DNA of 64,000 bases from Nitrospira sp. LK70 (GTDB taxonomy: Bacteria; Nitrospirota; Nitrospiria; Nitrospirales; Nitrospiraceae): positions 1 to 64,000 of the forward strand of contig PHGD01000001.1 of NCBI GenBank assembly GCA_011090425.1, in the 5' to 3' direction. Positions 39,853 to 64,000 of this stretch are shown one piece after another. The position numbers and the translations under genes were made by a program. How positions within the stretch are numbered: the first letter of the stretch is position 1; every line of letters begins with the position of its first letter. A model generated the notes under the pieces. The model saw only the letters and a program-made list of their open reading frames with translations, was not told where the DNA came from and ran no database searches.

Positions 39853-39928
39853 TGGAGCTGGCGAGAGGAATCGAACCTCCAACCTGCGGTTTACAAAACC
39901 GCTGCTCTGCCGATTGAGCTACGCCAGC
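39853..39928 (-). tRNA. tRNA-Thr (UGU)
   Basis: On the complementary strand the sequence folds as a full cloverleaf: acceptor GCTGGCG/CGCCAGC, D arm GCTC...GAGC, anticodon stem GCGGT/ACCGC with loop TTTGTAA (anticodon TGT), T arm GGAGG-TTCGATT-CCTCT, then T and an encoded CCA. It reads ACA threonine codons. An integrase gene ends 29 bases from its 5' side. Confidence 0.95.
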
Positions 39929-39956: not shown

Positions 39957-41066
39957 TTACAGGCTCTCGGCCTTGGGGTCAAGTGTTCCGGGCGTGTTCT
40001 CTTGGAGATATTTCCCAAGCTTACTTGCGGCCTGAGTAAGGTCCTCTTCTCTGATCTGATTATATCGTTTCCACATCTGCGGGGACGTATGGCCTACAAT
40101 CTGCATGGCTGTTGTTGTATCAATTCCAGCTCTCCGTAGGTTGGTTGCAGCACAATGCCGAAGGTCATGGAAGCGAAAATCACTTAAGCCTGCCTCTGTC
40201 AGGGCGGTTCTAAAGGCCGTGCGAAAATCCCTCAAGGGTTCCCGGTTGTACAGAAACACGTGCCTCGTTGAGAGACTCCGTATTTTGGCTAACCGCTGCA
40301 ACGTGGCTTTCACATCTGGCGTCATGGGGACTTGTCGCGGCTTCTTTGTCTTGGTGTCTTGACTCCGCAGGGTGATAAAACCTCTCTTGAGGTCTATGCG
40401 GTCCCAAGTTAAACCGACAATTTCACTGAGACGTTGTCCAAGTTGGTAAGCCGTCAACAGCACTGGTCGAAGGTGAGGCTTTGCCACATGATAGAGTCTG
40501 TTCCATTCTTCCTCGGTCAGTACTCTGTCTCGTGCGTTCTGCGGATCGGGCAGGGGAACCCTGGTAGCAGGGTTGACCTGTAAGAGCCCTCTTCGAATAG
40601 CAACATTGAGGCAGTGCTTGAGCACAATATGGTCATTGTTCACGGTCTGAATACTTGGTTTGCTGCCGTCTTTCTTCTTTCGTTGTGCTCGGAAGGCTTC
40701 GACATCAGAAGGCCTGATCTCCGTTAAGACCTTGCCACCGAAGAAGGGGATTAGCTGCCGCTCCATGATTTCGAGTCGATCTTGATAGCTGCGGAGCGTC
40801 TTGACTGATTCGAGATCCAGGTAAACCGTTGCCCATTCCTTGAAGAGAATCGGCTTGGCCTGTTCGGTTTTCTCGTGGCCCAACAGCAAGCGGGTTTTGA
40901 TCGCGGCTTCCATCTCGCGGGCGATCGTCTTGTTCGTGCACCCCACTTTCCATCGCTTCTTTTTTGCGCCAGGTACGCCACTCGCGAGGCTCCAGGATTT
41001 GCCATCCGCACTCTCAATCACACGGAACTCCACATAGTAACTATCGCGCCGCTTGGTTAGTCCCAT
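39957..41066 (-). CDS. Tyrosine-type phage integrase
   Basis: A 369-residue site-specific recombinase. The N-terminal part has an Arm-type and a SAM-like core-binding domain (EWATVYLDLESVKTLRSY..., IRPSDVEAFRAQRKKK). The catalytic half contains R in AYQLGQRLSEIVGLTWDRID, K in RSQDTKTKKPRQVPM, HDLRHCAATNLRRAGID with H-x-x-R, and Tyr in IVGHTSPQMWKRYNQI. It should insert and excise the element next to tRNA-Thr. The excisionase gene overlaps its start by 26 bases. Confidence 0.93.
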   Translation of the reverse strand: MGLTKRRDSYYVEFRVIESADGKSWSLASGVPGAKKKRWKVGCTNKTIAREMEAAIKTRLLLGHEKTEQAKPILFKEWATVYLDLESVKTLRSYQDRLEIMERQLIPFFGGKVLTEIRPSDVEAFRAQRKKKDGSKPSIQTVNNDHIVLKHCLNVAIRRGLLQVNPATRVPLPDPQNARDRVLTEEEWNRLYHVAKPHLRPVLLTAYQLGQRLSEIVGLTWDRIDLKRGFITLRSQDTKTKKPRQVPMTPDVKATLQRLAKIRSLSTRHVFLYNREPLRDFRTAFRTALTEAGLSDFRFHDLRHCAATNLRRAGIDTTTAMQIVGHTSPQMWKRYNQIREEDLTQAASKLGKYLQENTPGTLDPKAESL

Positions 41067-46273: not shown

Positions 46274-46825
46274 ATGGGGCAGCGGGCCAAACGGACGACG
46301 ACGATCACGGTGGATCTGGGTGAACTAAAAGCGCCCTGGCAGGCTTGGTGTCAGGCCTACGGCATCACGCCGAGCCATGCCCTGCGGAACGCCCTTCGGC
46401 AGGCCATGGACCGGAGAGCAACACGGGCTTCGGTGCCGCGGTTGCGCGTCACGCCGAAACGAGAACGAGCCACCGCTCGCATCGAACTGAACCTGACGAC
46501 CTCAGAGCTCGCTGCCCTGAAGAAGATGGCTGGTCACGAAGGTTATGTGCCGACGAAATGGCTGGTGGCGATGGTGCGGACCAAGTTGACCGGGCAGCCG
46601 CAGGTCGGACAGGCGGAATTAGAGACCTTGGCCCGGTCGAATCAGCAACTCCTTGCCTTGGGGAGGAACTTGAACCAGATTGCCAAGGTCCTGAATACCG
46701 CGCCTCAGAACCGAGCCGCCTTTCGGGTCGAGGTCATCACCGAACTCTCCCGCGTGATCCAGGCCCATACGAAGAAGGTGTCCGATGTCTTGCGTGGGAC
46801 CGTGGAGCGCTGGCACCTCCAATGA
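46274..46825 (+). CDS. mobC: MobC-like relaxosome protein
   Basis: A 183-residue protein. The N-terminal part (KRTTTITVDLGELKAPWQAWCQAYGITPSHALRNALRQ) looks like a ribbon-helix-helix DNA-binding domain. The C-terminal part (IELNLTTSELAALKKMAGHEGY ... ALGRNLNQIAKVLN) is the MobC domain. It would melt oriT and help the relaxase nick. ATG 46274 is chosen over an in-frame upstream ATG. It overlaps the relaxase gene (ATGA). Confidence 0.82.
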   Translation: MGQRAKRTTTITVDLGELKAPWQAWCQAYGITPSHALRNALRQAMDRRATRASVPRLRVTPKRERATARIELNLTTSELAALKKMAGHEGYVPTKWLVAMVRTKLTGQPQVGQAELETLARSNQQLLALGRNLNQIAKVLNTAPQNRAAFRVEVITELSRVIQAHTKKVSDVLRGTVERWHLQ

Positions 46826-47802
46826 GTTCGACAGGCAGCCAGATTGACCAGAAGTTGGATGAGTGGGGGAGTCGGCTCTTCAATGTCTCAACGGAGACGC
46901 TCCCGCGACCGCGTCGCAGCAGGAATGTTCGTCTGAGTTCCAACACGTTCGTGAGTACCGGCGGACGGCTCAGCACGGCACAGGCTCGTGCGACCTATGT
47001 GCGGCGGAAACTGCAGGCCATGGTCCGCCGCTCCCCGCAAGTGGTGGTGAAACTCGTCAGGGCGCCGAAAGGGATGAAGGGGATTTCGAACAACCTCACC
47101 TACATTTCGCGGGATGGGCTTCTCGAGATCGAAGATCAAGACGGTCAGGTGATACAGGGGAAAGACGCCGTGGCCGATCTGAAAGCCGAATGGCGGGACG
47201 GCGGGATACCGATTGCGGCAGATTCTACCATGCGTGATGCTTTTCATCTTGTCCTCTCCATGCCAACACGCACTGATCCGTTGTCGGTCCAACGGGCAGC
47301 CCGAGACTTTGCGAAGAGAGAGTTCTCGGGGTTTCAGTACGCGATGGTGCTCCACACCTTCGAGACCGATCCGGACCCGCATCCCTCTCCGCATCCACAT
47401 GTCCACCTGACCGTGAAAGCGGCGGGCCTCGACGGGATGCGCTTGAATCCCAGAAAGGCTGATCTGCAACGGTGGCGAGAAGGGTTTGCAGAGGCCCTCC
47501 GGGAGCATGGGATTGAAGCCACGACCACGAGTCGGATTCACCGGACAACACAGGAACGATGGACGGTGCGGCACATGACTGAACCGAGCAAAAAAGGGGA
47601 GCGGCTGGAGCGGCTGAAACGCACCACGCGCCGACATGGACGAGTCCAGGAAGTCATGCGGAATTATGAACAGGTGATGCGGACGTTAGCCCGGTCAGAT
47701 CGTGGGGAGGATCGGCAGTTGGCCGCAGACCTGGTCCGGTATTTAAGTGAACGGACGCAGGATGTCGCGAAGTCTCGCTCGCCGGAGCGGGAGCGATCTT
47801 AG
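46822..47802 (+). CDS. MobA/VirD2-like relaxase
   Basis: A 326-residue relaxase. Catalytic features are LTYISRDG near residue 95 with the likely nicking Tyr, and the metal-binding three-His cluster in PSPHPHVHLTVKA near residue 200, as in MOBP-type relaxases. The C-terminal third (RHMTEPSKKGERLERLKRTTRRHGRVQEVM) is basic. There is no coupling or type IV secretion gene nearby, so the element would need a helper for transfer. The start overlaps the mobC stop. Confidence 0.83.
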   Translation: MSSTGSQIDQKLDEWGSRLFNVSTETLPRPRRSRNVRLSSNTFVSTGGRLSTAQARATYVRRKLQAMVRRSPQVVVKLVRAPKGMKGISNNLTYISRDGLLEIEDQDGQVIQGKDAVADLKAEWRDGGIPIAADSTMRDAFHLVLSMPTRTDPLSVQRAARDFAKREFSGFQYAMVLHTFETDPDPHPSPHPHVHLTVKAAGLDGMRLNPRKADLQRWREGFAEALREHGIEATTTSRIHRTTQERWTVRHMTEPSKKGERLERLKRTTRRHGRVQEVMRNYEQVMRTLARSDRGEDRQLAADLVRYLSERTQDVAKSRSPERERS

Positions 47803-48099: not shown

Positions 48100-51000
48100 A
48101 TGAACATCTTCGAAACCCACTCCCGCATCGTTTCTGACTATGCCAGCTATATCAGCAGCTTCATCAAGATTTCTGATCCCAAGATTCAAGAAGTTGTTGA
48201 GGGTGAGTTAAGCCAAGGCAAGCTCTGGCCAGAACCGCTCCTGCAATTCAATCCTGCTTTTGAAATTGCAGGGGGCATCGATTTGCTTGCAGAGTCCGAG
48301 GGTTTTCATCCTGACCTTCATCACATCTTCAGCCAATACAAACTGTATCGCCACCAGATTGAAGCAATGAGGCTGGGCGGACAAGGCAAAGATTTTGTTG
48401 TTACATCGGGGACGGGATCGGGGAAATCGCTCACCTACATTGGGTCTATTTTTAATCACATACTTTCTCACCCTGTCACAAAAGGGGTGACCGCCATCGT
48501 GGTCTACCCGATGAACGCGCTCATCAATTCGCAATTTGAAGAGTTCAGTCGTTTTCAAGCGAAGTTTAAATCGTCTACGGGCAGGGACTTTCCCATCTCG
48601 TTCGGGCAGTACACAGGGCAAGAGAAGGAAGAAGCTCGAGTCAAAATGCGGGAGAATCCACCGCAGATTCTCCTCACCAACTATATGATGCTGGAGCTTC
48701 TTCTGACGAGGCTGCGAGAGCGGTCAATTCGTGATGGCATCTATGAGAACCTTCGATTCCTTGTCTTTGACGAACTTCACACCTACCGGGGCCGCCAAGG
48801 CGCAGATGTAGCGCTGCTCATTCGTCGTATTCGCTCACGATGCAGTATGCCAGTTGCGTGTATCGGGACTTCAGCCACCATGGTGTCGGCCGGAACACCC
48901 GCTGCCCAGCGTGCTGAGGTGGCGAATGTGGCAACAAGGCTTTTCGGTAAGCCGTTTACTCCCGATCAGGTCATAAATGAAAAACTTACGAGGTCCTGTT
49001 CGTTCAATGGCACGATTCCAGCTGGGACAGAGCTAAGGATCGCGATTGAGGCGGGCGTCCAGGCTGAAAGGGATGTCGATAGTCTCAAGGCGCATCCTGT
49101 CGCAATGTGGCTGGAAAACAGGCTGGCTCTGGACATGAGGGATGGCGATTTGGTTCGTGGAAAACCTCGACGACGATCTGAAATTATCACCGCGCTCTCT
49201 AAGGAGTCTGGTCTCGCGGAAAATATCTGCCGAGTCTTTTTTGAACAGCTCCTGCAATGGATCACCATCGTTAACAAGCGGCTGCAGGATTCCGGTAGCC
49301 GCTACACCTTGCTGCCGTTCAAGCTGCATCAGTTCATTTCCCAGACGGGCTCAGTCTATACGACACTCGATCAAGACGAGAATCGTTTCATTACCCTCGA
49401 GCCAGGAGTCTACAAGGCAGACGAGGAAGACAAGAAGCCCATCTTCTCGAATGTTTTCAGCCGTGCCAGCGGACATCCATTTATCTGTGTCTCCCGTCTT
49501 GATGATCGGTTAGAGCCACGCGAGTTTCGAGAGAGCTCAGACGACGATACTGAAGCAACAGATGGCTATCTCATCATTGGAAAGGACATTTGGGATCTAA
49601 CCGAAGATAGTGAATTTCTTCCAGACTCCTGGATTCGGATGACGAAGGCCGGAGCTGTTCCCGAGACCAAAAAGAAACCGTACTTCCCTGCAAAGCTCTA
49701 CTTCGACGAGTTCGGTAATTGTTCCGAAACGACACCTTTAAAGTGGGAAGGCTGGTTCATGAAGGCCCCTTTGCTCTTTGATCCGACGGGCGGTGTCTTC
49801 TATGATACCAAGACCAACGAAGGAACGAAGCTGACCAAGCTGGGCAGTGAAGGACGTAGCACCTCAACAACCATCACGGCGTTTTCAATTCTCAACCAGC
49901 TCGATGACGCAGGATTCAAGCCAGAAGACCGAAAACTGCTCAGCTTTACTGACAATCGACAGGATGCTGCACTTCAGGCCGGCCATTTTAACGATTTCGT
50001 CCAAGTGGTTCGACTTCGCGCGGGTATCTATAAAGCGTTAACGCAGGCCCCGTCCGGCTCACTGACTTATGCAACGATCGGGGAGGCGGTGCGTGTGGCG
50101 CTAGGGCTTCCCTTTCTAGATTTTGCGAACAGAAAGGAAGAGCCGGTCCTCGCCCCTGTCCGGCGCAACTACGAACAATGCTTCCAAGATTATCTTGTCT
50201 ATCGAGCCATTGCAGACCTTCGACGAAGCTGGCGAATTGTCCTGCCCAACTTGGAGCAGTGCGGCCTGCTGAATGTTGAGTACGCAGACGTTGACGAGAT
50301 TGCAGGGACGGAAGCGTTTTGGAAAGACGTTACGATTCTTGGCAGCCTGCAGGCTCAGGATCGGAAGGAATTCATCGCCACCATTCTTGATTTCTTTCGG
50401 CTGGAGTTTGCGATTCATAGCGAGAATTACCTGACGCACTCAAAACTCAAAGAGAGCGAGAAGCAGTTCAGGGAAATGCTCAAATCGCCCTGGACGCTGG
50501 ACAGGACCGAGGAACTGCGCGAGCCATTTGTCATTCGGTATGATCCACTTAACAGAACGGCCAAACTATCTTCAAAAAGCATGGGACCGGCGAGCTCCCT
50601 CGGAAAATATATCAAGTTATACGTTCGCCAGCGCGCGCTCGATATTCCCTTGAAGGGCGATCATTATCGCAACATCATTCTGCAGATCATGGCGAAGCTC
50701 GAAGAGGCGGATTATCTAAGGTCGCAAATGGCACGGTCTGAAAAGAATGAAGAAGTTCCGATCTATCGACTTCGCCTGGAGAAGATCATTTGGAAGTGCG
50801 GGGATGGCAAGGCCGTAAAGGCTGATCTGATCAAGCAGCGCGCATATAAGGAGCAAAATCCAAACCCGAATGAATTCTTCCGTGACCTGTATCAGCGAGA
50901 TTTCTCAAAAACCAAGCGGCTGAGAGGCGACGACCACACCGGCCAGCTGGGGACCGAAGTCCGTATCGAGCGTGAAGAACAATTCAAAGCTGGCAAGATC

Positions 51001-53217
51001 AGTGCGCTCTTTTGCTCGCCCACGATGGAGCTGGGAATCGACATCCGTAATTTGAGCGTGGTGCATATGCGAAATGCTCCGCCGAATCCATCCAACTATG
51101 CTCAACGTTCGGGGCGAGCTGGTCGAAGCGGCCAGGCGGCATTGGTGTTTACGTACTGCTCCGGCTATTCACCACATGATCGACACTATTTCAATGAGCA
51201 GCAGTCGTTAGTGGCTGGCGAGGTCCTCGCGCCACGCCTCGACCTCTGTAATCGAGAATTACTTGAGTCGCATCTGAACGCTGTAGCTGTGTCCGAGATC
51301 GGCCTACCAGGCCTCGATGATGTCGGAGAGGCCAAGCCGACCCTCATGCGACTGGTAACGGACGACAATGACAAGATGCCACTCACACTTGGAGTGCGTG
51401 CTGGTCTCACGGTCGCACCGGGCACCTTCGATAGCCTAAAGAGCAATTTCAAACGAGTGGTCAAAGACTTTGAGGACGATCTTCAGATCAAAGGTGCGAC
51501 GTGGTACACAGACCAGTGGGTAGAGCAGAACCTTTCGAAGGTCGCGGATCATCTTGATGCTTCCTTAGATCGGTGGCGCAGACTCTATCGGTCGGCTAGA
51601 ACCATTCTCACACGGGCGACGCAGAAGATAGAATGCGGCACACTCAGTCTGACGAGTGATGAGTACAGGAAACATAAACGGAATCAGGATCAAGCCACTC
51701 GCCAGTTGGACTTGTTGCGCAACAATCTCATTGGCAGCTCCTCTGAGCTATCCGAGTTCTATCCCTATCGGTATCTAGCCTCCGAGGGGTTTCTCCCTGG
51801 ATACAATTTTACTCGACTACCGCTGAGAGTGTTTCTGCCGACTAGCGATTCATCTGGAGAATTTGTTTCGCGCCCACGCTCCATCGCCCTTCGCGAATTT
51901 GGACCACGGAACATCATTTATCATAACGGACGAAAGTACAGAGTCTGTCAGCTGGTCGTACAGGACGCAGAAACGGCACTGGCCGAGGCGAAAATCAGTA
52001 CCAAGGCTGGCTATTTTCTTCCGATGGACCAGAAGGATCTGGAGATCTGTCCATTCTCTGGTCTGAACCTCGGAGACAATGCCAACAAGACTCACCTGCA
52101 TGATCTGATGGAAATGGCCGAGTCGAGGGCCGAAGAAATCGACCGAATTTCATGCGAGGAAGAAGAGCGGTTGTCTCGCGGCTACGAGATCGAGACCTAT
52201 TTCTCAGTTGATGCGGGACATCTTGAGCGTGTCAGGAAAGCAGTCGCCTGTACGAGCGAAAATGCCATGCTCAATCTTCGCTATGTTCCGGCGGCCCGCC
52301 TTGTACACGTGAATTACAAATGGCGATCGCAGACTTCGGATAGTTTTCCAATGGGGATGTTGTCTGGTGACTGGCGGAGCTCCATGCCGGAAGCGGATGA
52401 CAATGTGAATGAGCCTTTTAGATTGGTCAAGCTCTGGACCTCCAATCTTGCCGATGCGCTGCATATTGAACCCATCCAACCACTTGGGCTCAAAGCGGAT
52501 GGAGTCATCACGCTCCAACATGCCCTGAAGCGAGCGATCGAAGGGGTGTTTCAAGTCGAGTCGAATGAAGTCGGCGTCGTAGCAGTGGGTGATCCGGAGG
52601 CGCCCAATATCCTGCTGTATGAGGCATCGGAGGGAAGCCTGGGAATCCTTTCGCAATTTGTGTCTGATGTGAATGTTTTTCGCAAAGTTGTCGAGCAGGC
52701 CACCGCCCTTTGCCGGTACGACGATGAGAAGTACAAAGGTCCGGCCTCATATGACGATCTCTTGAGCTACTACAATCAGCGTGATCATAAGATCATCAAT
52801 CGGCATCTCATCAAGGATGCACTTGAAAAGCTGAAGATATGCAAGATCGAGATCCAAGCCAACTCGAACTATAAGAGCTACGAAGAGCACTATCAGGCCC
52901 TTCTCCGCGCCTTCGATCCCAGTTCAACGACCGAACGGAGGTTTCTGGATCATCTCTATCAAAACGGCCTTCGCTTGCCTGACGCGGCGCAGAAGCGAGT
53001 CGACGGAATTTATGTCCAACCGGATTTCTACTATGAGCCACGCATCTGGGTCTTCTGCGATGGGACGCCACATGATGAGCCGGCCGTAAAGGCAAGGGAC
53101 GAAGAGCAGCGCCAGGCCATTATCGCCAGGGGTGATGAAGTCTGGGCCTATTACTACAAAGACAATTTGGCGGAGAAGGTGGCTGCTCGCCCGGACATCT
53201 TCAGGAAAGTGCGATGA
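48100..53217 (+). CDS. Large SF2 helicase with DUF1998 and C-terminal nuclease-like domain
   Basis: A 1705-residue protein. Residues ~70-280 are the first RecA lobe with Walker A VVTSGTGSGKSLTY (~101), YPMNALINSQ and a DELH box LVFDELHTYRG (~222). Lobe two is around 890-1020 (LFCSPTMELGIDIRNLSVVH, QRSGRAGRSG). Residues ~1460-1545 resemble DUF1998. The last ~85 residues (GIYVQPDFYYEPRIWVFCDGTPHD ... ARDEEQRQAIIARGDEVW) look like a Vsr/PD-(D/E)XK-type nuclease. DISARM splits helicase and DUF1998 between DrmA and DrmB; here they seem fused. DruE of Druantia is another relative to consider. First gene of a five-gene cassette; overlaps the SNF2 gene (ATGA). Confidence 0.85.
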   Translation: MNIFETHSRIVSDYASYISSFIKISDPKIQEVVEGELSQGKLWPEPLLQFNPAFEIAGGIDLLAESEGFHPDLHHIFSQYKLYRHQIEAMRLGGQGKDFVVTSGTGSGKSLTYIGSIFNHILSHPVTKGVTAIVVYPMNALINSQFEEFSRFQAKFKSSTGRDFPISFGQYTGQEKEEARVKMRENPPQILLTNYMMLELLLTRLRERSIRDGIYENLRFLVFDELHTYRGRQGADVALLIRRIRSRCSMPVACIGTSATMVSAGTPAAQRAEVANVATRLFGKPFTPDQVINEKLTRSCSFNGTIPAGTELRIAIEAGVQAERDVDSLKAHPVAMWLENRLALDMRDGDLVRGKPRRRSEIITALSKESGLAENICRVFFEQLLQWITIVNKRLQDSGSRYTLLPFKLHQFISQTGSVYTTLDQDENRFITLEPGVYKADEEDKKPIFSNVFSRASGHPFICVSRLDDRLEPREFRESSDDDTEATDGYLIIGKDIWDLTEDSEFLPDSWIRMTKAGAVPETKKKPYFPAKLYFDEFGNCSETTPLKWEGWFMKAPLLFDPTGGVFYDTKTNEGTKLTKLGSEGRSTSTTITAFSILNQLDDAGFKPEDRKLLSFTDNRQDAALQAGHFNDFVQVVRLRAGIYKALTQAPSGSLTYATIGEAVRVALGLPFLDFANRKEEPVLAPVRRNYEQCFQDYLVYRAIADLRRSWRIVLPNLEQCGLLNVEYADVDEIAGTEAFWKDVTILGSLQAQDRKEFIATILDFFRLEFAIHSENYLTHSKLKESEKQFREMLKSPWTLDRTEELREPFVIRYDPLNRTAKLSSKSMGPASSLGKYIKLYVRQRALDIPLKGDHYRNIILQIMAKLEEADYLRSQMARSEKNEEVPIYRLRLEKIIWKCGDGKAVKADLIKQRAYKEQNPNPNEFFRDLYQRDFSKTKRLRGDDHTGQLGTEVRIEREEQFKAGKISALFCSPTMELGIDIRNLSVVHMRNAPPNPSNYAQRSGRAGRSGQAALVFTYCSGYSPHDRHYFNEQQSLVAGEVLAPRLDLCNRELLESHLNAVAVSEIGLPGLDDVGEAKPTLMRLVTDDNDKMPLTLGVRAGLTVAPGTFDSLKSNFKRVVKDFEDDLQIKGATWYTDQWVEQNLSKVADHLDASLDRWRRLYRSARTILTRATQKIECGTLSLTSDEYRKHKRNQDQATRQLDLLRNNLIGSSSELSEFYPYRYLASEGFLPGYNFTRLPLRVFLPTSDSSGEFVSRPRSIALREFGPRNIIYHNGRKYRVCQLVVQDAETALAEAKISTKAGYFLPMDQKDLEICPFSGLNLGDNANKTHLHDLMEMAESRAEEIDRISCEEEERLSRGYEIETYFSVDAGHLERVRKAVACTSENAMLNLRYVPAARLVHVNYKWRSQTSDSFPMGMLSGDWRSSMPEADDNVNEPFRLVKLWTSNLADALHIEPIQPLGLKADGVITLQHALKRAIEGVFQVESNEVGVVAVGDPEAPNILLYEASEGSLGILSQFVSDVNVFRKVVEQATALCRYDDEKYKGPASYDDLLSYYNQRDHKIINRHLIKDALEKLKICKIEIQANSNYKSYEEHYQALLRAFDPSSTTERRFLDHLYQNGLRLPDAAQKRVDGIYVQPDFYYEPRIWVFCDGTPHDEPAVKARDEEQRQAIIARGDEVWAYYYKDNLAEKVAARPDIFRKVR

Positions 53218-56087
53218 CCATAGCCCTTCAGCCAGGAAAATTGGTCACGCTGCGCGGCCGCACATGGATCGTGCTGCCATCAGAAGACCCTGATCTTTTA
53301 GTGGTCAAACCGCTAGGAGGGTCAGAAGAGGAGATGGCGGGCATTTATCTGCCCCTCGGGATGGAGAGCGATCGGCCATCCGATGCCAGCTTCACTCCAC
53401 CGACGAAAGACGACCTGGGTGATATCAGTACGGCCCGTCTGTTGTATGACTCGGCTCGGCTCGCCTTCCGTAATGGGGCAGGCCCCTTCCGTTCCCTAGC
53501 CAAACTCTCCTTCCGACCCCGTTCCTACCAAATGGTTCCCCTGATTATGGCTCTTCGGCAGGACTCAGTCCGTTTGATGCTGGCCGATGACGTGGGCGTT
53601 GGGAAGACGGTTGAAGCGCTCTTAGTGGTAAGGGAGTTGTTGGAACGAAGGAAGATTAAGCGGTTCGCCGTCGTCTGCTTGCCCCATCTCTGCGAACAGT
53701 GGCAAACGGAGATTCGGGACAAGCTGGACCTCGAAGCAGTGATCATCCGTTCGAATACCCAAGCGAGATTGGATCGACAAATCCAAGGTGATACCAGCGT
53801 CTACGACTACTACCCCTACCAGGTGATCAGTGTTGATTTCATCAAGTCGGATACCAGGCGCGATCTGTTCATTGAGCAATGTCCCGAACTCGTGATCGTG
53901 GATGAAGCGCATACCTGTGCCAGGCCGGCCGGGGCGTCGGCCAGCCAACAGCAGCGCTATCATTTGGTCAGTCGGATCGCGCAGAAACCTCATCAGCAAC
54001 TGATGTTGCTGACAGCCACTCCACATAGTGGCAAGCCCGAAGAGTTTCATTCGCTACTTGGCCTGCTCAAGCCGGAGTTCGAAGACATCGATCTTCCAGC
54101 TTCCTCCCAGGCGCAGCGGCGTGACTTGGCTAAATATTTTGTACAGCGCAAACGTGCCGACGTTGAGAAATGGATGGGTGAGGACACGCCCTTCCCCAAA
54201 CGTGAGGCATTCGAGTGGCCCTACGATCTTTCGCAGGGATACAGCCGGTTCTTCGAACAGATCCTCGACTTTGCCAAGAAGTTGGTATCGCCCGATGACG
54301 AAAAAGATGGCAAGCGTAGAGTGCAGTATTGGACGGCACTCGCTCTGCTGCGAGGCGTCATGTCCAGTCCTGCCGCTGGCATCGAAATGCTCAATACGCG
54401 TCTTGATGATCTTGGGCCAGGAGCAGGAGATGAGTCTGCCGAGGTTGTCGGCCTGAATTTCGAATCAGGGGAGAACCCGGTCCGCGACATGGATTATGGG
54501 TTTGAGGGGGACAATACCCCGCAGCAAGTGCTGGAACACAACGCCTGGACGGCATCCCAGCGGCAACAGCTACGATCCTTCTCCGAGCAGCTGGTCAGAC
54601 TGTCGAATCTGAAAGACGACCAGAAACTCGCTTCGGCGGAACTCATCCTGGGCGAGTGGCTATCCAAGGGCATCAACCCGGTCGTCTTCTGCCGCTACAT
54701 AAAGACGGCCGATCATGTGGGGGAGACGCTGGCGCCCGTCCTGAAAACGAAATTTCCGAAGTTGAACTTGCAGGTCATTACAAGTGAACTGCCTGATGAT
54801 CTCCGAAAACAGCGCATCGAGGAGATGGGGAAATCTACCCTCCGTATTCTCATCGCCACGGATTGTCTGAGCGAGGGCATCAACCTCCAGCAACATTTCA
54901 CTGGGGTTCTGCACTACGACCTGCCGTGGAATCCAAACCGGTTAGAACAGCGGGAGGGACGGGTTGATCGATTCGGCCAGACCGCCAAGGAAGTGAAAGC
55001 CTGCCTGTTGTATGGGGCCGATAATCCGATCGACGGCATCGTGTTGGATGTCTTGCTGCGCAAGGTTCGCGAGATCAAACGCGCGACCGGCATCAATGTG
55101 CCGTTCCCGGAGGATTCGCAGAGCATCATCGATACGATCACCCAGGCGTTGCTGCTTAATCCAGACAGGAAGATTGCCCGCCATCGCGACAAGAATCAGA
55201 TTGAGTTCAGCTTCGACGAGTTTGATGAAGCCGCCAAGTCGAAGTCTAAAGTGACCAAGAAGGTCGACGAAGCCGCCGAGCGCGAAAAGATCTCCCGCAG
55301 CATTTTTGCGCAGAATGCCATTAAGGCCGAGGAGATCGAAGCGGATTTGCGGCAGGTGGATGAGGCCATCGGGGATCCGAACGCCGTCGAGGAGTTTGTC
55401 ACGGCGGCGCTCAACAATCTGCTGGGTGTGCAGGTCATCAAAGATGCGAAGGGCTACCGCATTGTGATGGGTAACATGCCGCCGCAGCTTCGCGAAACGC
55501 TCCCGACTGGTGATCCCGTCAAGGTGAGCTTTGAATCGCCCACTCCGGAAGGGTATCTCTACCTGGGGCGCAACAATCGCTTCGTCGAGCAGCTATGCCA
55601 GCTAGTGATGGCGAACACCCTGTTGCGAATGGAAAAGCGGGCGGCCCGGGCCGCGATCATCCGAACACGCCAAGTTGAAATCAAAACGACGCTCTTGCTG
55701 TTTCGCTGTCGGAACGTCATCGAGCAACAGAAGGGGGCGCATCAAATTGTTGCGGAGGAGATGTTGCTCTGGGGCTGGCGGGGGACACCGCAGCAAAAGG
55801 AATTTCTCGATCATGCAGAAGCCAAAGCGTTGCTCGCGTCAGCGCGAGCCACGTCAGATCTCACGGTTCAAGCTCGGGCGGGGTTTCTTGAGAATGAAGT
55901 GAAGGTCTTGGAGACTTTGCAGGCAGACTTTTCTGTGGTCGCCGAGCAGCAGTCGAAAAAACTGGTCGAGGCTCATGAGCGTTTCAGTTCGCTGATGGAT
56001 GCCCGGCAGTTCCAGGTTGTCTATCCAGTTCTGCCCATGGATCTCCTCGGGATCTATGTCTTGTTACCAGACGGCGCCAGGGCCTGA
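53214..56087 (+). CDS. SNF2-type helicase (DrmD-like)
   Basis: A 957-residue SNF2/RapA-like ATPase. Q-type start FRPRSYQMVPLIMALRQ (~103), Walker A ADDVGVGKTVEALLV (~123), DEAH LVIVDEAHTCARP (~228), motif III TATPHSGKPEEF, and C-lobe motifs ATDCLSEGINLQ (~547) and WNPNRLEQREGRVDRFGQ (~575). The C-terminal ~350 residues are charged helices, probably contacting partners. SNF2 proteins of this length precede DrmMI in class 1 DISARM as DrmD. Starts in the stop of the large helicase, ends 21 bases before the methylase, so the three are one operon. Confidence 0.88.
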   Translation: MTIALQPGKLVTLRGRTWIVLPSEDPDLLVVKPLGGSEEEMAGIYLPLGMESDRPSDASFTPPTKDDLGDISTARLLYDSARLAFRNGAGPFRSLAKLSFRPRSYQMVPLIMALRQDSVRLMLADDVGVGKTVEALLVVRELLERRKIKRFAVVCLPHLCEQWQTEIRDKLDLEAVIIRSNTQARLDRQIQGDTSVYDYYPYQVISVDFIKSDTRRDLFIEQCPELVIVDEAHTCARPAGASASQQQRYHLVSRIAQKPHQQLMLLTATPHSGKPEEFHSLLGLLKPEFEDIDLPASSQAQRRDLAKYFVQRKRADVEKWMGEDTPFPKREAFEWPYDLSQGYSRFFEQILDFAKKLVSPDDEKDGKRRVQYWTALALLRGVMSSPAAGIEMLNTRLDDLGPGAGDESAEVVGLNFESGENPVRDMDYGFEGDNTPQQVLEHNAWTASQRQQLRSFSEQLVRLSNLKDDQKLASAELILGEWLSKGINPVVFCRYIKTADHVGETLAPVLKTKFPKLNLQVITSELPDDLRKQRIEEMGKSTLRILIATDCLSEGINLQQHFTGVLHYDLPWNPNRLEQREGRVDRFGQTAKEVKACLLYGADNPIDGIVLDVLLRKVREIKRATGINVPFPEDSQSIIDTITQALLLNPDRKIARHRDKNQIEFSFDEFDEAAKSKSKVTKKVDEAAEREKISRSIFAQNAIKAEEIEADLRQVDEAIGDPNAVEEFVTAALNNLLGVQVIKDAKGYRIVMGNMPPQLRETLPTGDPVKVSFESPTPEGYLYLGRNNRFVEQLCQLVMANTLLRMEKRAARAAIIRTRQVEIKTTLLLFRCRNVIEQQKGAHQIVAEEMLLWGWRGTPQQKEFLDHAEAKALLASARATSDLTVQARAGFLENEVKVLETLQADFSVVAEQQSKKLVEAHERFSSLMDARQFQVVYPVLPMDLLGIYVLLPDGARA

Positions 56088-56108: not shown

Positions 56109-59100
56109 ATGAACTATCCGAGCATTCGCATCGAAGGAGCGATCCTTTCACCGGATATTCTTGATCGGCTCGATGACATCGCCGGCCAGCGCCCCAGGGA
56201 CTTTGGGTTCGACGGGTCCGTCAAGGTAAAGGACGAGATTGCCCGCGCCTGGGCCGACGCCCAGGACTATTGGCGTATCTTCCACCGCAAGCTCGACACG
56301 CTCAAAGCGGATTCACCCGCTACCACCGAAACTCGGAATCTCTGGATTGTCCCGCTCCTTGGACTACTCGGCTACCAGCTTGAGTATCAGGCGCGAGGCG
56401 TCGAGCTGAACGACAAGAATTATCCCATCTCGCACCGTGTCACCAATCGAGGGCAGGCGGCCCTTCATATCATTGGATACCGTGAACCGGCGGGCCTCGA
56501 CAAAAAACCTGAGCGTGCAACGGTTCGGATGTCGCCCCACGCGTTGGTGCAGGAATATCTGAATCTGTGTGAGCAGGTATATGGGTTGGTGACCAATGGA
56601 CGTCTGCTGCGATTACTCCGCGATAGCTCTCGGCTGGTCAAGCTCACCTATTTGGAATTCGATCTCGATCGAATCTTCACCGACGGCCTGTTCGCCGATT
56701 TCGCCGTTCTGTACCGCTTGCTCCATGTGTCTCGTTTGCCGGTCGCTCCTGAATCCACCGGTCAAAGCCTGATTGAGCGCTATCATCAAGACTCACTCGA
56801 ATCCGGGGCTCGTATTCGGGATGGGCTCAGCAGGGCCGTTGAGCAGGCCATCCTGGCGTTTGCCAATGGTTTTCTGACGCATCCGAGCAACGAGTCCTTA
56901 CGGCAAGCCATCACCGCTGGTGATCTCAAGCCCGCTGACTACTATCACCACTTATTGCGGCTGATTTACCGTCTCCTGTTCCTCTTGGTCATCGAGGAGC
57001 GTGATCTTGTCTATCCGTCTTCGGTCCCAAGCGCGAAACGTGAGGTGTACAACCGGTACTACAGCCTGCAACGGCTCCGCCGGCTTTCGGAAAAGCGGTA
57101 CCTGGCCGACCATCGACACAACGATCTCTGGTTGAACCTGCTCGCGACCTTTCGGCTGTTTGAAGCGGATGGACCTGGCAGCAAGCTTGGTCTCGCACCG
57201 TTGGCCGGGGATCTATTCGGGCCGGATGCCATCGGGGCATTGAGCCGGTGCATGTTAACGAACGAGGTGTTGCTTGGCTGCTTGCGGTCCCTGGGGCTCT
57301 ACCAACATCCGGACTCGGGACAGCTCATTCGGGTCAACTACGCCGCGCTCAATGTCGAAGAGTTTGGGTCTGTATACGAAGGCCTACTGGAATATGAACC
57401 GGTCTTCCACTCGTCCGGAAACCAAATCGAATTTGCCTTTAGCAGGAGCGATGAGCGAGCTGCGACAGGCTCTCATTACACGCCTGACGAATTGGTCCAG
57501 CCGCTCCTAAAGCATTCGCTCGATTACCTGATTGCAGAGAAGCTCAAGGAACAGGATAAAGAAAGCGCCCTGCTCTCACTGCGCGTGGCCGATATCGCCT
57601 GCGGGTCCGGCCATATCTTGCTCGCTGCGGCGAGGCGAATTGCGACAGAACTGGCCTTTGTTCGAACTGGCGAGGAGCAGCCTTCTCCGACTGCCTTCAG
57701 GGCTGCAGTGCGCGATGTCATTCGCGAGTGCATCTATGGGGTGGACTATAATCCGCTCGCGGTTGAACTATGCAAGGTGGCGTTTTGGCTAGAAGCTCAT
57801 AATCCTGGGCAGCCGCTCAACTTCCTAGATCACCATATTAAATGCGGTAATGCGATCGTCGGGTATGTCAGGCGTGAGGGCCTAGACAAGGGAGTTCCCG
57901 ATGAAGCTTTCGCCACTATGCCGGGGGATGACAGGGAGGTTGCGGCCGAATTCAGAAAGCAAAATAAGACTGAACGGAAAGCCCAAGACCAAACACCTCT
58001 GAACCTTGCGCCGGAGATTCAGAGACAGCTCGACCAAATTCTAGAACGCTGGCGTGAACTGTCCCTCTTGCCTGAGTCGACGCCGAACCAGATCTTAACG
58101 AAGAAGCAGCGGTATCAGAACTTTACGAAAAGCCAAGATGCCTGGTTGCTCAATCAGATTGCCGCGATTCCGATGGCCCAGTTCTATATCCCGAAGACAG
58201 AAGAGAATCACTCCAAGCTGATCACCGACGCAGAGTTCCGGCTGTACTGGTCAGGTCAGCGCCATCCGCAGGGGCAGGCGACGGCAGCGGCGTGGGTGAC
58301 AGCAATTCAGAAACGGTTCTTTCATTGGTTCTTGGAATTTCCTGAGATCATGGAGAGTGGTGGATTCGATTGCATACTTGGAAACCCACCATACCTTGGT
58401 GGACAAGGTTTGAGCAGTACCTACGGTCATCCGTTCTGCGGGTACATGAAATGGGAATTTGCCCCGGCGGGCCTCTCCGACCTGGTGGTCTATTTTGTCC
58501 GCCGCATATATAGTCTGCTTCGCCACGGCGCCTTTACCGCTTTCATCACTACCAATTCAATCAAAGACGGTGACATCCGCAAAGATGGGCTCGAACGGGT
58601 ACTTGCAGAGCAAGGCACTATAAACTTCGCTACGCGCGGTATTAAGTGGCCGGGACACGCTAACCTGGTGGTCTCTCTTGTTGCAATCCATCGGGGGGAA
58701 TGGCCCGGTAAGCGGGTCCTCGATGGAAGAGAGGTTCCTGTCATAAGTGCTCATTTTGAGGACCACCTCGATTTGGGCCCTGCTAGGTCCCTTTTGGAGA
58801 ATGAAGATCGGATCTATCAGGGCTCTATTTTTCTCGGAGATGGCTTTTGGTTAACGCACCAAGAAGCCGAAGCTATGAGATCGAACAATCCTTCCCTGGA
58901 TGAAGTTATCTTTCCGGTCATCAATGGCCAAGAGCTTAATAGCAGCCCAAGTCAATTTCCGGGTCGACAAGCAATAAACTTCTTCGATTGGCCCCTGGAA
59001 AAGGCAGAGCAATACGGTGAGGCCTTTGATCGTGTTCAGCGATTGGTCAGGCCTGAACGAGAGAATGTAAACCGAGCGGTCCGACGAGAACGATGGTGGC

Positions 59101-59894
59101 AATATGCTGAAAGAGCCACGGGCCTTTACAGCCATATCCAACATCTGCATCGATGTTTCGGTATTGCACGCACGACGAAACATCTCAACTTTTCTTCGCT
59201 TCCGACGAATTATGTCTTCACGGATGCTCTCTACGTCTTCGTAACCGACCGCTGGGATCATTATGCGGTCGTCCAATCTACGCTTCACGAAGTCTGGGCG
59301 CGCAAATACAGTGGCGCATTAAAACAGGATCTACGCTACTCCCCATCAAACTGCTTCGAGACATTTCCGTTCCCAGAAGGCTTATGGCAGACAGCTAATC
59401 CAGCACTGACAGATATCGGTGAGCACTACCATGACCACCGCCACGCCCTCATGCCGAAGCTCTGGCTAGGTCTGACTGGCATCTACAATCTCTTCCACAC
59501 CCGCGACCTCACATCCGAGATGGTTGCCAAAGTTAGCGAGAAGGCATCTGGTGAGGCGGATGCCGGGTATCGCGGTATTCTCAAGCTGCGCCGGCTGCAT
59601 CAAGAACTAGACGATGCTGTCCGCGACGCCTATGGTTGGCAGGATCTCAAGCTCAACCACGACTTCTACGAAGTCGAAACCCTGCCGGAAAACGATCGAG
59701 TGCGCTACACCATCAGTCCCTCTGCCCGTAAAGAAGTCCTCCGCCGCCTCCTCGCCCTCAACCACGAACGAGCCAAAGCCCAGCAAGTTGTAGCGGATGG
59801 CACCAAAGAAGCTCCAAAGAAGCGCCGGTCGTCCAAGAAATCTCAAACCGTGTCATCAGGGCTATTCGGCGACGAAGGGGCAGGAAGTGTGTAA
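56109..59894 (+). CDS. Eco57I-type adenine-specific DNA methylase (DrmMI-like)
   Basis: A 1261-residue class I methyltransferase. The SAM motif DIACGSGHILLAAARR is near residue 497 and the catalytic NPPY in LGNPPYLGG near 758, the order of gamma-type N6-adenine methylases. FSRSDERAATGSHYTPDELV precedes motif I, as in Eco57I-type enzymes. The N-terminal ~450 residues have no nuclease signature that I can see; the C-terminal ~350 probably recognise target DNA. With the two helicases it suggests a restriction-type defence in which self DNA is methylated. It ends directly against the HAD gene (no gap). Confidence 0.88.
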   Translation: MNYPSIRIEGAILSPDILDRLDDIAGQRPRDFGFDGSVKVKDEIARAWADAQDYWRIFHRKLDTLKADSPATTETRNLWIVPLLGLLGYQLEYQARGVELNDKNYPISHRVTNRGQAALHIIGYREPAGLDKKPERATVRMSPHALVQEYLNLCEQVYGLVTNGRLLRLLRDSSRLVKLTYLEFDLDRIFTDGLFADFAVLYRLLHVSRLPVAPESTGQSLIERYHQDSLESGARIRDGLSRAVEQAILAFANGFLTHPSNESLRQAITAGDLKPADYYHHLLRLIYRLLFLLVIEERDLVYPSSVPSAKREVYNRYYSLQRLRRLSEKRYLADHRHNDLWLNLLATFRLFEADGPGSKLGLAPLAGDLFGPDAIGALSRCMLTNEVLLGCLRSLGLYQHPDSGQLIRVNYAALNVEEFGSVYEGLLEYEPVFHSSGNQIEFAFSRSDERAATGSHYTPDELVQPLLKHSLDYLIAEKLKEQDKESALLSLRVADIACGSGHILLAAARRIATELAFVRTGEEQPSPTAFRAAVRDVIRECIYGVDYNPLAVELCKVAFWLEAHNPGQPLNFLDHHIKCGNAIVGYVRREGLDKGVPDEAFATMPGDDREVAAEFRKQNKTERKAQDQTPLNLAPEIQRQLDQILERWRELSLLPESTPNQILTKKQRYQNFTKSQDAWLLNQIAAIPMAQFYIPKTEENHSKLITDAEFRLYWSGQRHPQGQATAAAWVTAIQKRFFHWFLEFPEIMESGGFDCILGNPPYLGGQGLSSTYGHPFCGYMKWEFAPAGLSDLVVYFVRRIYSLLRHGAFTAFITTNSIKDGDIRKDGLERVLAEQGTINFATRGIKWPGHANLVVSLVAIHRGEWPGKRVLDGREVPVISAHFEDHLDLGPARSLLENEDRIYQGSIFLGDGFWLTHQEAEAMRSNNPSLDEVIFPVINGQELNSSPSQFPGRQAINFFDWPLEKAEQYGEAFDRVQRLVRPERENVNRAVRRERWWQYAERATGLYSHIQHLHRCFGIARTTKHLNFSSLPTNYVFTDALYVFVTDRWDHYAVVQSTLHEVWARKYSGALKQDLRYSPSNCFETFPFPEGLWQTANPALTDIGEHYHDHRHALMPKLWLGLTGIYNLFHTRDLTSEMVAKVSEKASGEADAGYRGILKLRRLHQELDDAVRDAYGWQDLKLNHDFYEVETLPENDRVRYTISPSARKEVLRRLLALNHERAKAQQVVADGTKEAPKKRRSSKKSQTVSSGLFGDEGAGSV

Positions 59895-60545
59895 ATGACT
59901 AAACGAAGGTCTAGCAAGCAACGGTTAGGGAAGACAGCTCGGTTTGTTCTTGGGGTTGATCTGGATGGAGTGGTTGCCGACTTCTATGGTCGACTGCGTG
60001 GGATTGCTGCGGAATATCTCGGTGTTCTCATTGAGACGCTCCCTGAAAAGATCAGATATGGCCTTCCAGAGTGGAAGCTAAGCAAAGCGGGTGGTTACGA
60101 GGCGCTCCATCGATTTGCGGTGACCCAACGAGATCTTTTCAAACAGTTGGACCCATTACCTGGAGCCCCGGCAGTCCTTCGACGCCTTTCAGCGAAGAAT
60201 ATCCGAATTCGGATCATAACTCATCGCTTGTATATCAAGTTCTTCCATTTGGAAACCGTCCGGCAAACCACGGAGTGGCTGGACATTCATGGCATCCCGT
60301 ACTGGGATTTGTGTTTCATGAAGGACAAAGCAGCGGTAGGCGCTGATCTCTACATCGAAGACTCTCCTAGCAATGTTGAAGCACTCCGGGAGGGTGGTCA
60401 CCCGACAATCGTCTTCACCAATTCAACGAACCTGGGATTGCCGGGTCCACGAGCAGACTCGTGGGATGAGGTTGAGAGGCTTGTCCTTCAGGAATTTAAG
60501 AAGTGGAGAGCTGGCGCTAAGAAGAAAGGGCTTTCTGGAGCCTGA
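59895..60545 (+). CDS. HAD-family 5'(3')-deoxyribonucleotidase-like protein
   Basis: A 216-residue HAD phosphatase of the NT5C group. Motif I is LGVDLDGVVADFYGRL (nucleophile and acid Asp), motif II IRIITHRLYI (Thr), and motifs III/IV KDKAAVGADLYIEDSPSNVEAL. Such enzymes dephosphorylate nucleotides, mainly dNMPs. ATG abuts the methylase stop. In a defence cassette it may deplete nucleotides or process degradation products; this is inference. The N-terminus is Lys/Arg rich for 15 residues. Confidence 0.85.
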   Translation: MTKRRSSKQRLGKTARFVLGVDLDGVVADFYGRLRGIAAEYLGVLIETLPEKIRYGLPEWKLSKAGGYEALHRFAVTQRDLFKQLDPLPGAPAVLRRLSAKNIRIRIITHRLYIKFFHLETVRQTTEWLDIHGIPYWDLCFMKDKAAVGADLYIEDSPSNVEALREGGHPTIVFTNSTNLGLPGPRADSWDEVERLVLQEFKKWRAGAKKKGLSGA

Positions 60546-60562: not shown

Positions 60563-62017
60563 ATGTCGATGCATATCACCGCTCAAGCCCTCTACAACAT
60601 CACCAAGTGTGCGCATCGGGTGTACCTCGATGCCAACGGCGATCCCAAGGACCGGAGCAAGGTCGGCTCCTTTGTGAGGCTACTCTGGGAACTGGGCCTT
60701 CAAACTGAGCGGGAGTATCTTGGCTCGCTTGGCGAGCTGGCCGTCTCAGATCTCAGCCAGTATGGGATTGACGAGGCGTGGGTAGAAACACAGCGACTCA
60801 TGAAGGAAGGAGCTGACCTCATCTACCAAGGGTGCCTCGCGGATGGGTCATTCGTGGGACGACCTGATCTGCTGCTCAAACGAACGAATCATTCATCACG
60901 GTTTGGTTCCTACGCCTACGAACCTATCGACATCAAAGCCGGGAAAGGCTGGGAAGAGCGGGATGGCAAGCGGACGCACTTCAAAGAACACTATGCGTTT
61001 CAGATCCTTTTCTACCGCCTACTGTTAGAGCATATCCAGGGAGCATCTTTCCCTATCGGGCGCATTGTGAACGTCGAGAAACAGCTTGAAGAGTTCCCGA
61101 TCACCGATTTCGAGCCAGACTTTCAGCAGGCGCTCGCCGAAGCGCAGCGGTTGGTTTCTGGTCAGGAGACCTCCGAACCGGTTCTGGGAAGTCACTGCCA
61201 ACTCTGCCAGTGGCATCGACGCTGCGAGCGCTGGGTCACCGAGCAGGCTGATCCTACCGGGTTGTTTTTTGTGGGGAAGGTCAAGTTTCACCTAAAACAA
61301 GTTGGACTCAAGACGATCCAGGATATTGCCGCGATGGATGTGAGTCAGTATCTGAAACCGCCGAAGAAGATTCCACGCACCGGAAAAGACTCATTGCTGC
61401 GCATGAAGGAGCGTGCTCGGGTCAGGCTGGCCGGGAAGCCGGAGATTCGACCAGGCTATACCTTCCCTGCGCGAGCACGCGAAGTCTATTTCGATATTGA
61501 GGATGATCCGACACGTGGGGTGACCTATCTGTTTGGCCTCTTGATCAAGGAGCATGGAAGAGTATCAGACTTTCAGTATTTCCTCGCCAAGTGCCCCAAT
61601 GAGGAAGAATCAACGGTAAGGGCCTTTTGGGAGTTCCTGCGTACAGCCGGAGAGGAAGTTTACTACGTCTACTCACACAAAGAACGTAGTACACTCAAAC
61701 AACTTATGGAACGATACGACCTTGATCCGGCCGTACTGGAAATCTACAAGAGTAGGGAGTACGACTTGTACAGCGATCTCATCGTGAAGTACTCCGACTG
61801 GCCGACCTATTCCTATGGGATCAAACAGATTGCCAAGCAGATCGGTTTCAAGTGGCGAGATCCCGATCCATCCGGTGCCAACTCAATCGCTTGGTACAAT
61901 CAGTATCTCGCCAATCCGACCGATGAAGCTCCCCTGCAAAGGATCTTGACCTACAACGAGGATGACTGCTTGGCGATGGTGGCGGTGAAGGATTATTTCG
62001 AACAGGCGAGTCGTTAG
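60563..62017 (+). CDS. TM0106-type RecB-like nuclease with C-terminal DEDD domain
   Basis: A 484-residue protein. The N-terminal PD-(D/E)XK part has VGRPDLLLK (Asp), EPIDIKAGKG (D-x-K), and Cys in ITKCAHRVYLD and CQLCQWHRRCERW, a Cas4/AddB-like 4Fe-4S set. A helical linker (LKTIQDIAAMDVSQYL) leads to an RNase H-like exonuclease domain: VYFDIEDDPTRG (D-x-E) and ILTYNEDDCLAMVAVKDY (D) at the end. Two nuclease domains in one chain fit a DNA-degrading effector. It follows the HAD gene by 17 bases. Confidence 0.88.
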   Translation: MSMHITAQALYNITKCAHRVYLDANGDPKDRSKVGSFVRLLWELGLQTEREYLGSLGELAVSDLSQYGIDEAWVETQRLMKEGADLIYQGCLADGSFVGRPDLLLKRTNHSSRFGSYAYEPIDIKAGKGWEERDGKRTHFKEHYAFQILFYRLLLEHIQGASFPIGRIVNVEKQLEEFPITDFEPDFQQALAEAQRLVSGQETSEPVLGSHCQLCQWHRRCERWVTEQADPTGLFFVGKVKFHLKQVGLKTIQDIAAMDVSQYLKPPKKIPRTGKDSLLRMKERARVRLAGKPEIRPGYTFPARAREVYFDIEDDPTRGVTYLFGLLIKEHGRVSDFQYFLAKCPNEEESTVRAFWEFLRTAGEEVYYVYSHKERSTLKQLMERYDLDPAVLEIYKSREYDLYSDLIVKYSDWPTYSYGIKQIAKQIGFKWRDPDPSGANSIAWYNQYLANPTDEAPLQRILTYNEDDCLAMVAVKDYFEQASR

Positions 62018-62905: not shown

Positions 62906-63580
62906 CTAGCTTCCAAGACCCGTAAGATGAAGAGCCCTTTTGGCCAGAGCTTCAATAGACTTTTGAGGCTCCACGTAGTTCATACGGCAATAGCATGCAT
63001 AGGTGACGTAGACATCTTGTAAGCAGTATTCAGCGATTTCCTTCCATTTACCGCTCGCCCACATTTTTCTCACGTGTTCACCGGAGCCAGATTTTGCTTC
63101 CACTTCCAATACTCTGGCAAGCACATCCAACTTCACAGCTCCCCGGAAATCCCAGTTTGTCCATACTGCCATTGTGTCAAAAACTGATCGTGTCTGGAAT
63201 TTGGCAAGATTGATTTCTACGGTTGGCTTCACTTGATGAATAATCGATCGCTTTTTGATGAAGGGGAGGTCGAAGTTAAGACCGTTATGCGTAATCACCT
63301 GATCAGGCCGGTGCTTTCCCATGAAGTCCCAAAATGCTTCTAGAATTGCCTTCTCGTTTTCTCCATACCAAGCAATTGGGTTTAACGAAGTGGAATCATC
63401 CTTTAGGCTCAGTACCCCAATAAACACAATCCGGCTGAAAGTTCCGTCAAAGAAGGACTTTTGATAGCTCTTCTCAAAGTTTGGAAAGTCAGATTCTACC
63501 TCGGCTATATCCAGCCCAACCAAGGCCGCCCATTCGTTGATGGGCGCTGCATCCGTTTCAATATCTAAGACAACCTTCAT
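62906..63580 (-). CDS. PolB-type 3'-5' exonuclease (DEDD)
   Basis: A 224-residue RNase H-fold exonuclease. It starts MKVVLDIETDAAPINEWAAL (D-x-E, motif I), with DQVITHNGLNFDLPFI (N and D, motif II) and IAEYCLQDVYVTYACYC (C-terminal Asp, motif III). It has no polymerase part. It follows a reverse transcriptase gene by 11 bases on the same strand, so it is likely the effector or processing partner of that gene. ATG 63580 is used; a TTG at 63601 would overlap the RT gene. Confidence 0.85.
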   Translation of the reverse strand: MKVVLDIETDAAPINEWAALVGLDIAEVESDFPNFEKSYQKSFFDGTFSRIVFIGVLSLKDDSTSLNPIAWYGENEKAILEAFWDFMGKHRPDQVITHNGLNFDLPFIKKRSIIHQVKPTVEINLAKFQTRSVFDTMAVWTNWDFRGAVKLDVLARVLEVEAKSGSGEHVRKMWASGKWKEIAEYCLQDVYVTYACYCRMNYVEPQKSIEALAKRALHLTGLGS

Positions 63581-63591
63581 GGAGCCTTTGA

Positions 63592-64000
63592 TTACATCCA
63601 AGAGATCCGTTCAAAATCTCGCATAAGCTTGCCCCCTCGTAGCGGGTTGACTTTCCGAATGTATTCAATCTTTCCTCTCAGTCGTAGCTTTGCGGTCTTC
63701 ACATCACAGTCAAACTGTGATGCCCCACCATTTTTCAGACAATTATGAATGATTGCTCTCACCTCTCGATAGCGGGACTTTGGCACATCCAGCTTATCTC
63801 CTCTGAGCACATACCCCGTCACCATCTTTTGGTCATGCTCACGAAGCAGTTGGTTCTTTGACGGTTTCGTGCTGACTTTGAACCCTTCCTCCTTAATGAT
63901 TGTTTCCAGTAAGCGCTTTAACCCTACGATGCGCTTCGATCCAGAAATGGTTAAGTCATCTCCATAGACAGTCACCTCAAGATTATGAGCTTCACAGAGA
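63592..64000 (-). CDS. Retron-like reverse transcriptase, 5' end outside window
   Basis: The frame is open to the window edge. It begins LCEAHNLEVTVYGDDLTISG, and the YGDD box with the following LTISG is the catalytic motif of reverse transcriptases, in the retron-type context Y-x-DD-L-T-x-S. The rest (VTGYVLRGDKLDVPKSRYREVRAIIHN, LRGKIEYIRKVNPLRGGKL) follows the C-terminal pattern of retron RTs. The annotated length is the last ~135 residues of about 300-400. A retron ncRNA would lie to the right, beyond the window. YGDD instead of YADD is a small departure. Confidence 0.82.
   Translation of the reverse strand, partial: LCEAHNLEVTVYGDDLTISGSKRIVGLKRLLETIIKEEGFKVSTKPSKNQLLREHDQKMVTGYVLRGDKLDVPKSRYREVRAIIHNCLKNGGASQFDCDVKTAKLRLRGKIEYIRKVNPLRGGKLMRDFERISWM

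Follow-up and report, generated by a model that had tools for sequence, protein, structure and literature searches.

The 1705-aa helicase gene at 48100–53217 on the plus strand of the window, i.e. the whole 64 000 nt stretch of Nitrospira sp. LK70 DNA analysed here, very probably opens an ARMADA type I operon carried by an integrative, probably mobilisable element, in which a Vsr nuclease tethered to the helicase motor would cut DNA; this placement is made by gene order and architecture. In addition, comparison of aligned sequences indicates that one ARMADA I clade, to which the window protein belongs, has very likely lost its zinc-site cysteines at all three sites together, while the motor, the Vsr nuclease and both partner proteins stayed.

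ARMADA type I was described as a YprA helicase followed by a BrxHII-like SNF2 protein and a PglX-like methylase, with a Vsr nuclease, predicted to be active, at the C-terminal end of the YprA protein (reference WP_108720193.1; Bell et al. 2025, PMC12458937). A BrxA-like insert is a further trait of ARMADA type I. Since exactly this architecture and order are present, the window was identified as an ARMADA I locus, and a helicase with a built-in Vsr nuclease is accordingly already known and not new. The new part is the loss of the zinc sites, which was missed in the original prediction and which the authors of the ARMADA paper may already have noticed as a zinc-less branch. For the built-in nuclease, the results represent an independent confirmation in ARMADA and name the residues to mutate.

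The helicase and its C-terminal nuclease domain

The gene starts with ATG and encodes a YprA/MrfA-type SF2 helicase with a C-terminal Vsr-type nuclease, the homologue of the ARMADA type I YprA protein. Pfam searches returned DEAD (4.8e-24), Helicase_C (7.3e-14) and MZB/DUF1998 (26.1 bits, cut-off 24.2), and on the basis of the alignment of relatives the Walker A GTGSGKS, DELH and GTSAT motifs were all intact. Among PADLOC models, DruE gave the best match (286 bits, against 34 bits for DrmA). The presence of DUF1998 in the chain, as originally claimed, was thus borne out by the MZB profile match, but its zinc ligands are gone: the four-cysteine cluster of the YprA/MrfA family is broken in the window protein, with K, S and D at three of the cysteine columns. 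The motifs PDFYYE, VFCDGTPHD and RQAIIARGDEVW, on which the prediction of a nuclease-like tail was built, were found exactly in the 1705-aa ORF. Because the aligned homologues start at the equivalent Met and share the same C-terminal end, the tail is part of the gene and no read-through product.

The Vsr/EDxHD-type PD-(D/E)XK nuclease domain is located at 52933–53214 on the plus strand (residues ~1612–1705), and was recognised by AF2, Foldseek, hhalign and conservation; its pocket and conserved residues are E1612, PD1642F, CD1654G, H1658-D1659, D1667 and R1671. AF2 modelling of residues 1575–1705, with 14 sequences (the window and fetched loci) as input, resulted in a confident alpha/beta fold (mean pLDDT 86, pTM 0.78) with a helix at 36–47, strands at 69–71 and 75–80, a helix at 87–102 and a strand at 106–111 in model numbering, which are the modelled elements expected for a compact PD-(D/E)XK core. 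The best Foldseek match of the model against the PDB was the catalytic domain of I-Bth0305I, an enzyme akin to Vsr, with probability 1.00 and a TM-score of 0.60 by target, and a modest E-value of 0.026. I-Bth0305I is an example of the EDxHD homing endonucleases, with an active site and mechanism similar to those of PD-(D/E)XK enzymes (PMC3943268).

Alignment of 39 tails by hhalign against Vsr proteins of the taxonomic class of the window gave 92% (E 5e-7), and against DUF559 proteins 81% (E 1e-5); the two decoys, taken from elsewhere in this helicase, stayed below 1%. In the pairing with Vsr, E1612 was matched to the helix Glu, D1642 to the Asp of the PD motif, the FCDGTPHD block to FVHGCFWH, and D1667 to the Asp in the N-x-RD stretch. 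The pocket residues would correspond to E25, D51, H69 and D97 of E. coli Vsr. A Pfam search of the tail gave no significant family for the last ~105 residues beyond the end of MZB, and a PDB sequence search with the tail alignment returned chance matches only for the nuclease domain.

In the window clade, i.e. the close relatives with 64–81% identity to the window protein, E1612, P1641, D1642, F1643, D1654, G1655, H1658, D1659, D1667 and R1671 were unvarying, and the residue set was nearly or wholly retained in many relatives at ~35% identity, including proteins from the genus of the window itself, Planktothrix, Deinococcus, Rhodococcus and viral contigs. The set was degraded in helicases L024, L025, L031 and L036, and in several loci from the order of genome G275. 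Since the pocket is degenerate in these related helicases, the Vsr domain may be dispensable for cutting, and the window tail could likewise be a catalytically dead Vsr fold that binds DNA or protein only, a state predicted in Druantia I/II and seemingly present in some ARMADA I relatives. Such a reading is unlikely, however, given that the active-site positions are invariant across the whole clade and the pocket is kept in so many distant relatives, a pattern as under selection on catalysis. Both the Vsr/PD-(D/E)XK fold and the conservation of the acidic residues among orthologues, as proposed from the letters of the window, were consequently upheld: the fold was recovered by three routes (AF2, Foldseek, hhalign), and the acids were conserved. 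The helicase thus bears its own predicted Vsr-type nuclease domain, which is presumably active.

Loss of the zinc-site cysteines

The helicase alignment comprised 23 full-length sequences and was extended to 26, and it contained 11 cysteine columns representing three sites; the DUF1998 site was counted by three columns of its four-cysteine cluster, hence 11 columns in total. Zinc binding by these cysteines is according to PMC12458937 and PMC13192584. The former zinc site 1 (49459–49791, plus strand; residues 454, 457, 561 and 564) reads S, S, D and G in place of the CxxC...CxxC of the relatives. In the former site 2 (51997–52059, plus strand; residues 1300, 1303, 1317 and 1320), C1317 alone is retained, and in the former DUF1998/MZB site (52735–52758, plus strand; residues 1546, 1550 and 1553) the three Cys are replaced by K, S and D.

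All 13 full-length relatives outside the window clade had Cys at 11/11 columns, whereas ten of the 11 were lost in each of the 13 full-length clade members, C1317 being the only one kept. For site 1, the count of sequences with the cysteines was 13/13 outside against 0/13 within the clade. Invariant replacements in the clade were Ser454, Asp561, Ser1300, Ser1550 and Asp1553. A wider census of the C-terminal part divided in the same manner, as all sequences of ≥64% identity were devoid of the Cys and nearly all of ≤37% kept all seven, and no intermediates between Cys-keeping and Cys-less sequences were seen in it. The exceptions at ≤37% (L063, L064, L068, L069 and L070, with one change) were partial, misread or the most distant rows.

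Records of the clade came from five phyla (Nitrospirota, Planctomycetota, Latescibacterota, Pseudomonadota and Verrucomicrobiota) and one viral contig. The host phyla are to be taken cautiously, because most members are derived from metagenome bins; named strains of Acidithiobacillus, Paraburkholderia and Caballeronia are among the members. In an unrooted tree of the helicases, built without the zinc-site columns, the 13 clade members were placed on one side of a branch with 100/100 support and a length of 1.1.

Zinc modules in the RecA2 and OB insertions, together with the DUF1998 four-cysteine cluster, are typical of ARMADA, and the DUF1998 cluster characterises the entire YprA family, its loss having been reported only in Dpd (PMC12458937). 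In DruE, the zinc clusters are located in the MrfA-like module, beside the DNA channel (PMC13192584). As DruE has zinc clusters and the DUF1998 cluster marks the whole family, loss rather than gain is the economical reading. ARMADA systems are defined by YprA clade and operon (PMC12458937), and the zinc modules whose cysteines are missing throughout the window clade are typical of them, so the window is filed as a variant and not as a plain ARMADA I member. With the zinc sites lost, and motor and nuclease intact, the regions around the DNA channel are presumably held together without zinc. An AF2 model of the canopy (residues 1190–1574) reached a pLDDT of 34 and was not used.

If the loss is true, zinc modules to which a role in shaping the DNA-bound state is ascribed would be replaceable, and selection against zinc dependence would be suggested, for example by zinc limitation, oxidation or a phage factor targeting zinc modules, although the cause is speculative. 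The contrast between sister branches with and without the three zinc sites would represent a natural experiment on the role of the zinc modules, which bears on YprA defence helicases such as DruE, DrmB and ARMADA YprA.

The operon, its mobile setting and related loci

Between the helicase stop and the start of the second gene there is a 4-base overlap. The second gene encodes a 957-aa BrxHII/DrmD/RapA-like SNF2 helicase (53214–56087, plus strand) with a DrmD match of 284 bits in PADLOC, and of 297 bits in NCBIfam, which is under the cut-off of 610. This gene is followed by a 1261-aa PglX/DrmMI/MmeI-like adenine DNA methyltransferase with an MmeI-type target recognition domain (56109–59894, plus strand; PADLOC DrmMI, 730 bits). 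The DrmMI and DrmD scores would agree with a variant of DISARM class 1 that arose by fusion of DrmA with DrmB and replacement of the DrmC nuclease by the tail. That origin is very improbable, as the YprA protein scores far higher with DruE than with DrmA, the operon is devoid of DrmB and PLD DrmC genes, and published phylogeny separates the ARMADA architecture from DISARM (PMC12458937).

Two further genes continue on the plus strand, a 216-aa NT5C-type HAD 5'-nucleotidase (59895–60545), which abuts the methylase, and a 484-aa TM0106-family RecB/Cas4-like PDDEXK nuclease with an RNase_H_2 (YprB-type) domain (60563–62017; TIGR03491, 270 bits). Neither gene was matched in the related genome loci used for comparison, of which seven extend more than 1.5 kb past the methylase, and the products annotated downstream of the methylase on two window-clade plasmids did not include them. 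The two genes are thus considered cargo, and were ruled out as system components since they are not conserved with helicase, SNF2 and methylase. On account of the YprB-type domain in this fifth gene, the helicase might be thought to act in DNA repair together with an RNase_H_2 (YprB/MrfB-type) nuclease, in the manner of MrfAB. Of the readings weighed this is the least credible, because the fifth gene matches the TM0106/Cas4-like family and is missing from the other loci, and because the helicase is recognised by defence YprA models and has SNF2 and methylase genes as neighbours. A DUF2779/Cas4-like nuclease adjoining another ARMADA I locus (L024:18408–19913, minus strand) recalls the TM0106 gene of the window.

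The ARMADA I operon is set in a region with traits of mobile DNA. A relaxase-like ORF for mobilisation, with a MobP1-like domain and a true start probably further in, was identified at 46345–47802 on the plus strand, and a tyrosine integrase gene (39957–41066, minus strand) lies 28 bases from a tRNA-Thr gene (39853–39928), probably marking the edge of a mobile element. A helix-turn-helix (HTH_17) protein is also encoded near the ARMADA locus. The relaxase-like ORF, HTH_17 protein and tRNA-Thr-adjacent integrase are consistent with an integrative mobilisable element; a search for its second attachment site, which covered the contig as far as 100 kb, did not find the tRNA-Thr region repeated. 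Adjoining the operon is a 301-aa retron/DRT-like reverse transcriptase gene (L026:3593–4498, minus strand, equal to G000:C68 63592–64497), followed by a DEDD/PolB-type 3'-5' exonuclease gene (window 62906–63601, minus strand). The best PADLOC models for the reverse transcriptase were RT_VI and RT_III-A, NCBIfam retron_St85 scored 181 bits where its cut-off is 235, and there was no Rfam match beside the gene.

Related loci with contigs of sufficient length had the order helicase, SNF2, methylase, which is common to close relatives and distant zinc-bearing relatives. When type I and type II orders were compared in eight further distant relatives, all eight had the type I order. In a cyanobacterial relative the order was reversed, as stated for ARMADA in cyanobacteria (PMC12458937).

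Two sister YprA-Vsr helicases (L022:9540–14849, minus strand, and L032:3325–8247, plus strand; 100/99 support) were orphans with no SNF2 or methylase partners in the stretches seen, and possibly represent a stand-alone YprA-Vsr lineage. In three ARMADA I loci (L028:24312–26282; L029:24318–26288, by annotation only; L024:1884–3863, minus strand), a DUF2326/LmuB-like SMC-type ATPase gene comes directly 3' of the methylase, which suggests an optional accessory gene of ARMADA I. In genome G075, the C-terminus of the methylase recurs (L020:19066–19341; residues 1162–1255, 64% identical) 2.8 kb past the methylase gene, and this second copy is perhaps a target-recognition duplicate or a remnant.

Proposed mechanism and comparison with known systems

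The protection that ARMADA II gives E. coli against phages is direct and non-abortive, and it depends on every gene of the system as well as on the ATPase and methylase motifs; published anti-phage activity concerns type II only (PMC12458937). DruE is reported to engage ssDNA-containing replication intermediates as a helicase-nuclease (PMC13192584). Beside the gene order, architecture, nuclease fold, and conserved active-site and helicase motifs observed in this study, methyl-based self-recognition, ssDNA loading and cleavage may be drawn by analogy with these two systems. The PglX-like enzyme would methylate host DNA as a self mark, and the SNF2 helicase and YprA motor would load on unmodified or ssDNA-containing phage DNA. 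While translocating, the YprA motor would carry along the tethered C-terminal nuclease, which would cut phage DNA at a metal site presumably built from E1612, D1642, H1658 and D1667.

The window domain shares with the Vsr/EDxHD nucleases (E. coli Vsr and I-Bth0305I) its fold and the order in which the conserved E, PD, H and D occur, but it is joined to a translocase of ~1600 residues, and FVHGCFWH of Vsr is changed to FCDGTPHD. The Druantia type III DruE, the best PADLOC match, is likewise a YprA-family helicase fused to a C-terminal nuclease. It has two PLD domains, a DruH partner and four zinc clusters (PMC12458937, PMC13192584), whereas the window protein bears a Vsr domain, is accompanied by SNF2 and methylase proteins and is without the zinc-site Cys set. 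Membership in Druantia type III was rejected on account of these neighbours, the Vsr-like C-terminus and the lack of a PLD match in the window protein.

In DISARM, the helicase, the DUF1998 protein and the PLD nuclease are encoded by separate genes. A DrmD-like SNF2 protein and a DrmMI-like methylase are common to DISARM class 1 and the window, but helicase and DUF1998 form one chain in the latter and the nuclease is a fused Vsr instead of a PLD DrmC gene product, so that, with no separate DrmA or DrmB in the operon either, class 1 membership was rejected. The built-in nuclease does set the system apart from DISARM, as was foreseen in the original prediction.

ARMADA type II (E. coli NCTC 12900 and ATCC 8739) has the same three core proteins and the C-terminal Vsr on YprA, and differs in its order SNF2, methylase, YprA and GajB/RelE; in the window the order begins with YprA, and a GajB/RelE fusion gene was not found. 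The likeness to ARMADA type I comprises the YprA-like protein in first position, the BrxHII-like SNF2, the PglX-like methylase and the predicted active C-terminal Vsr, and the differences are the loss of all three zinc sites in the window clade and the two extra genes that follow in the window.
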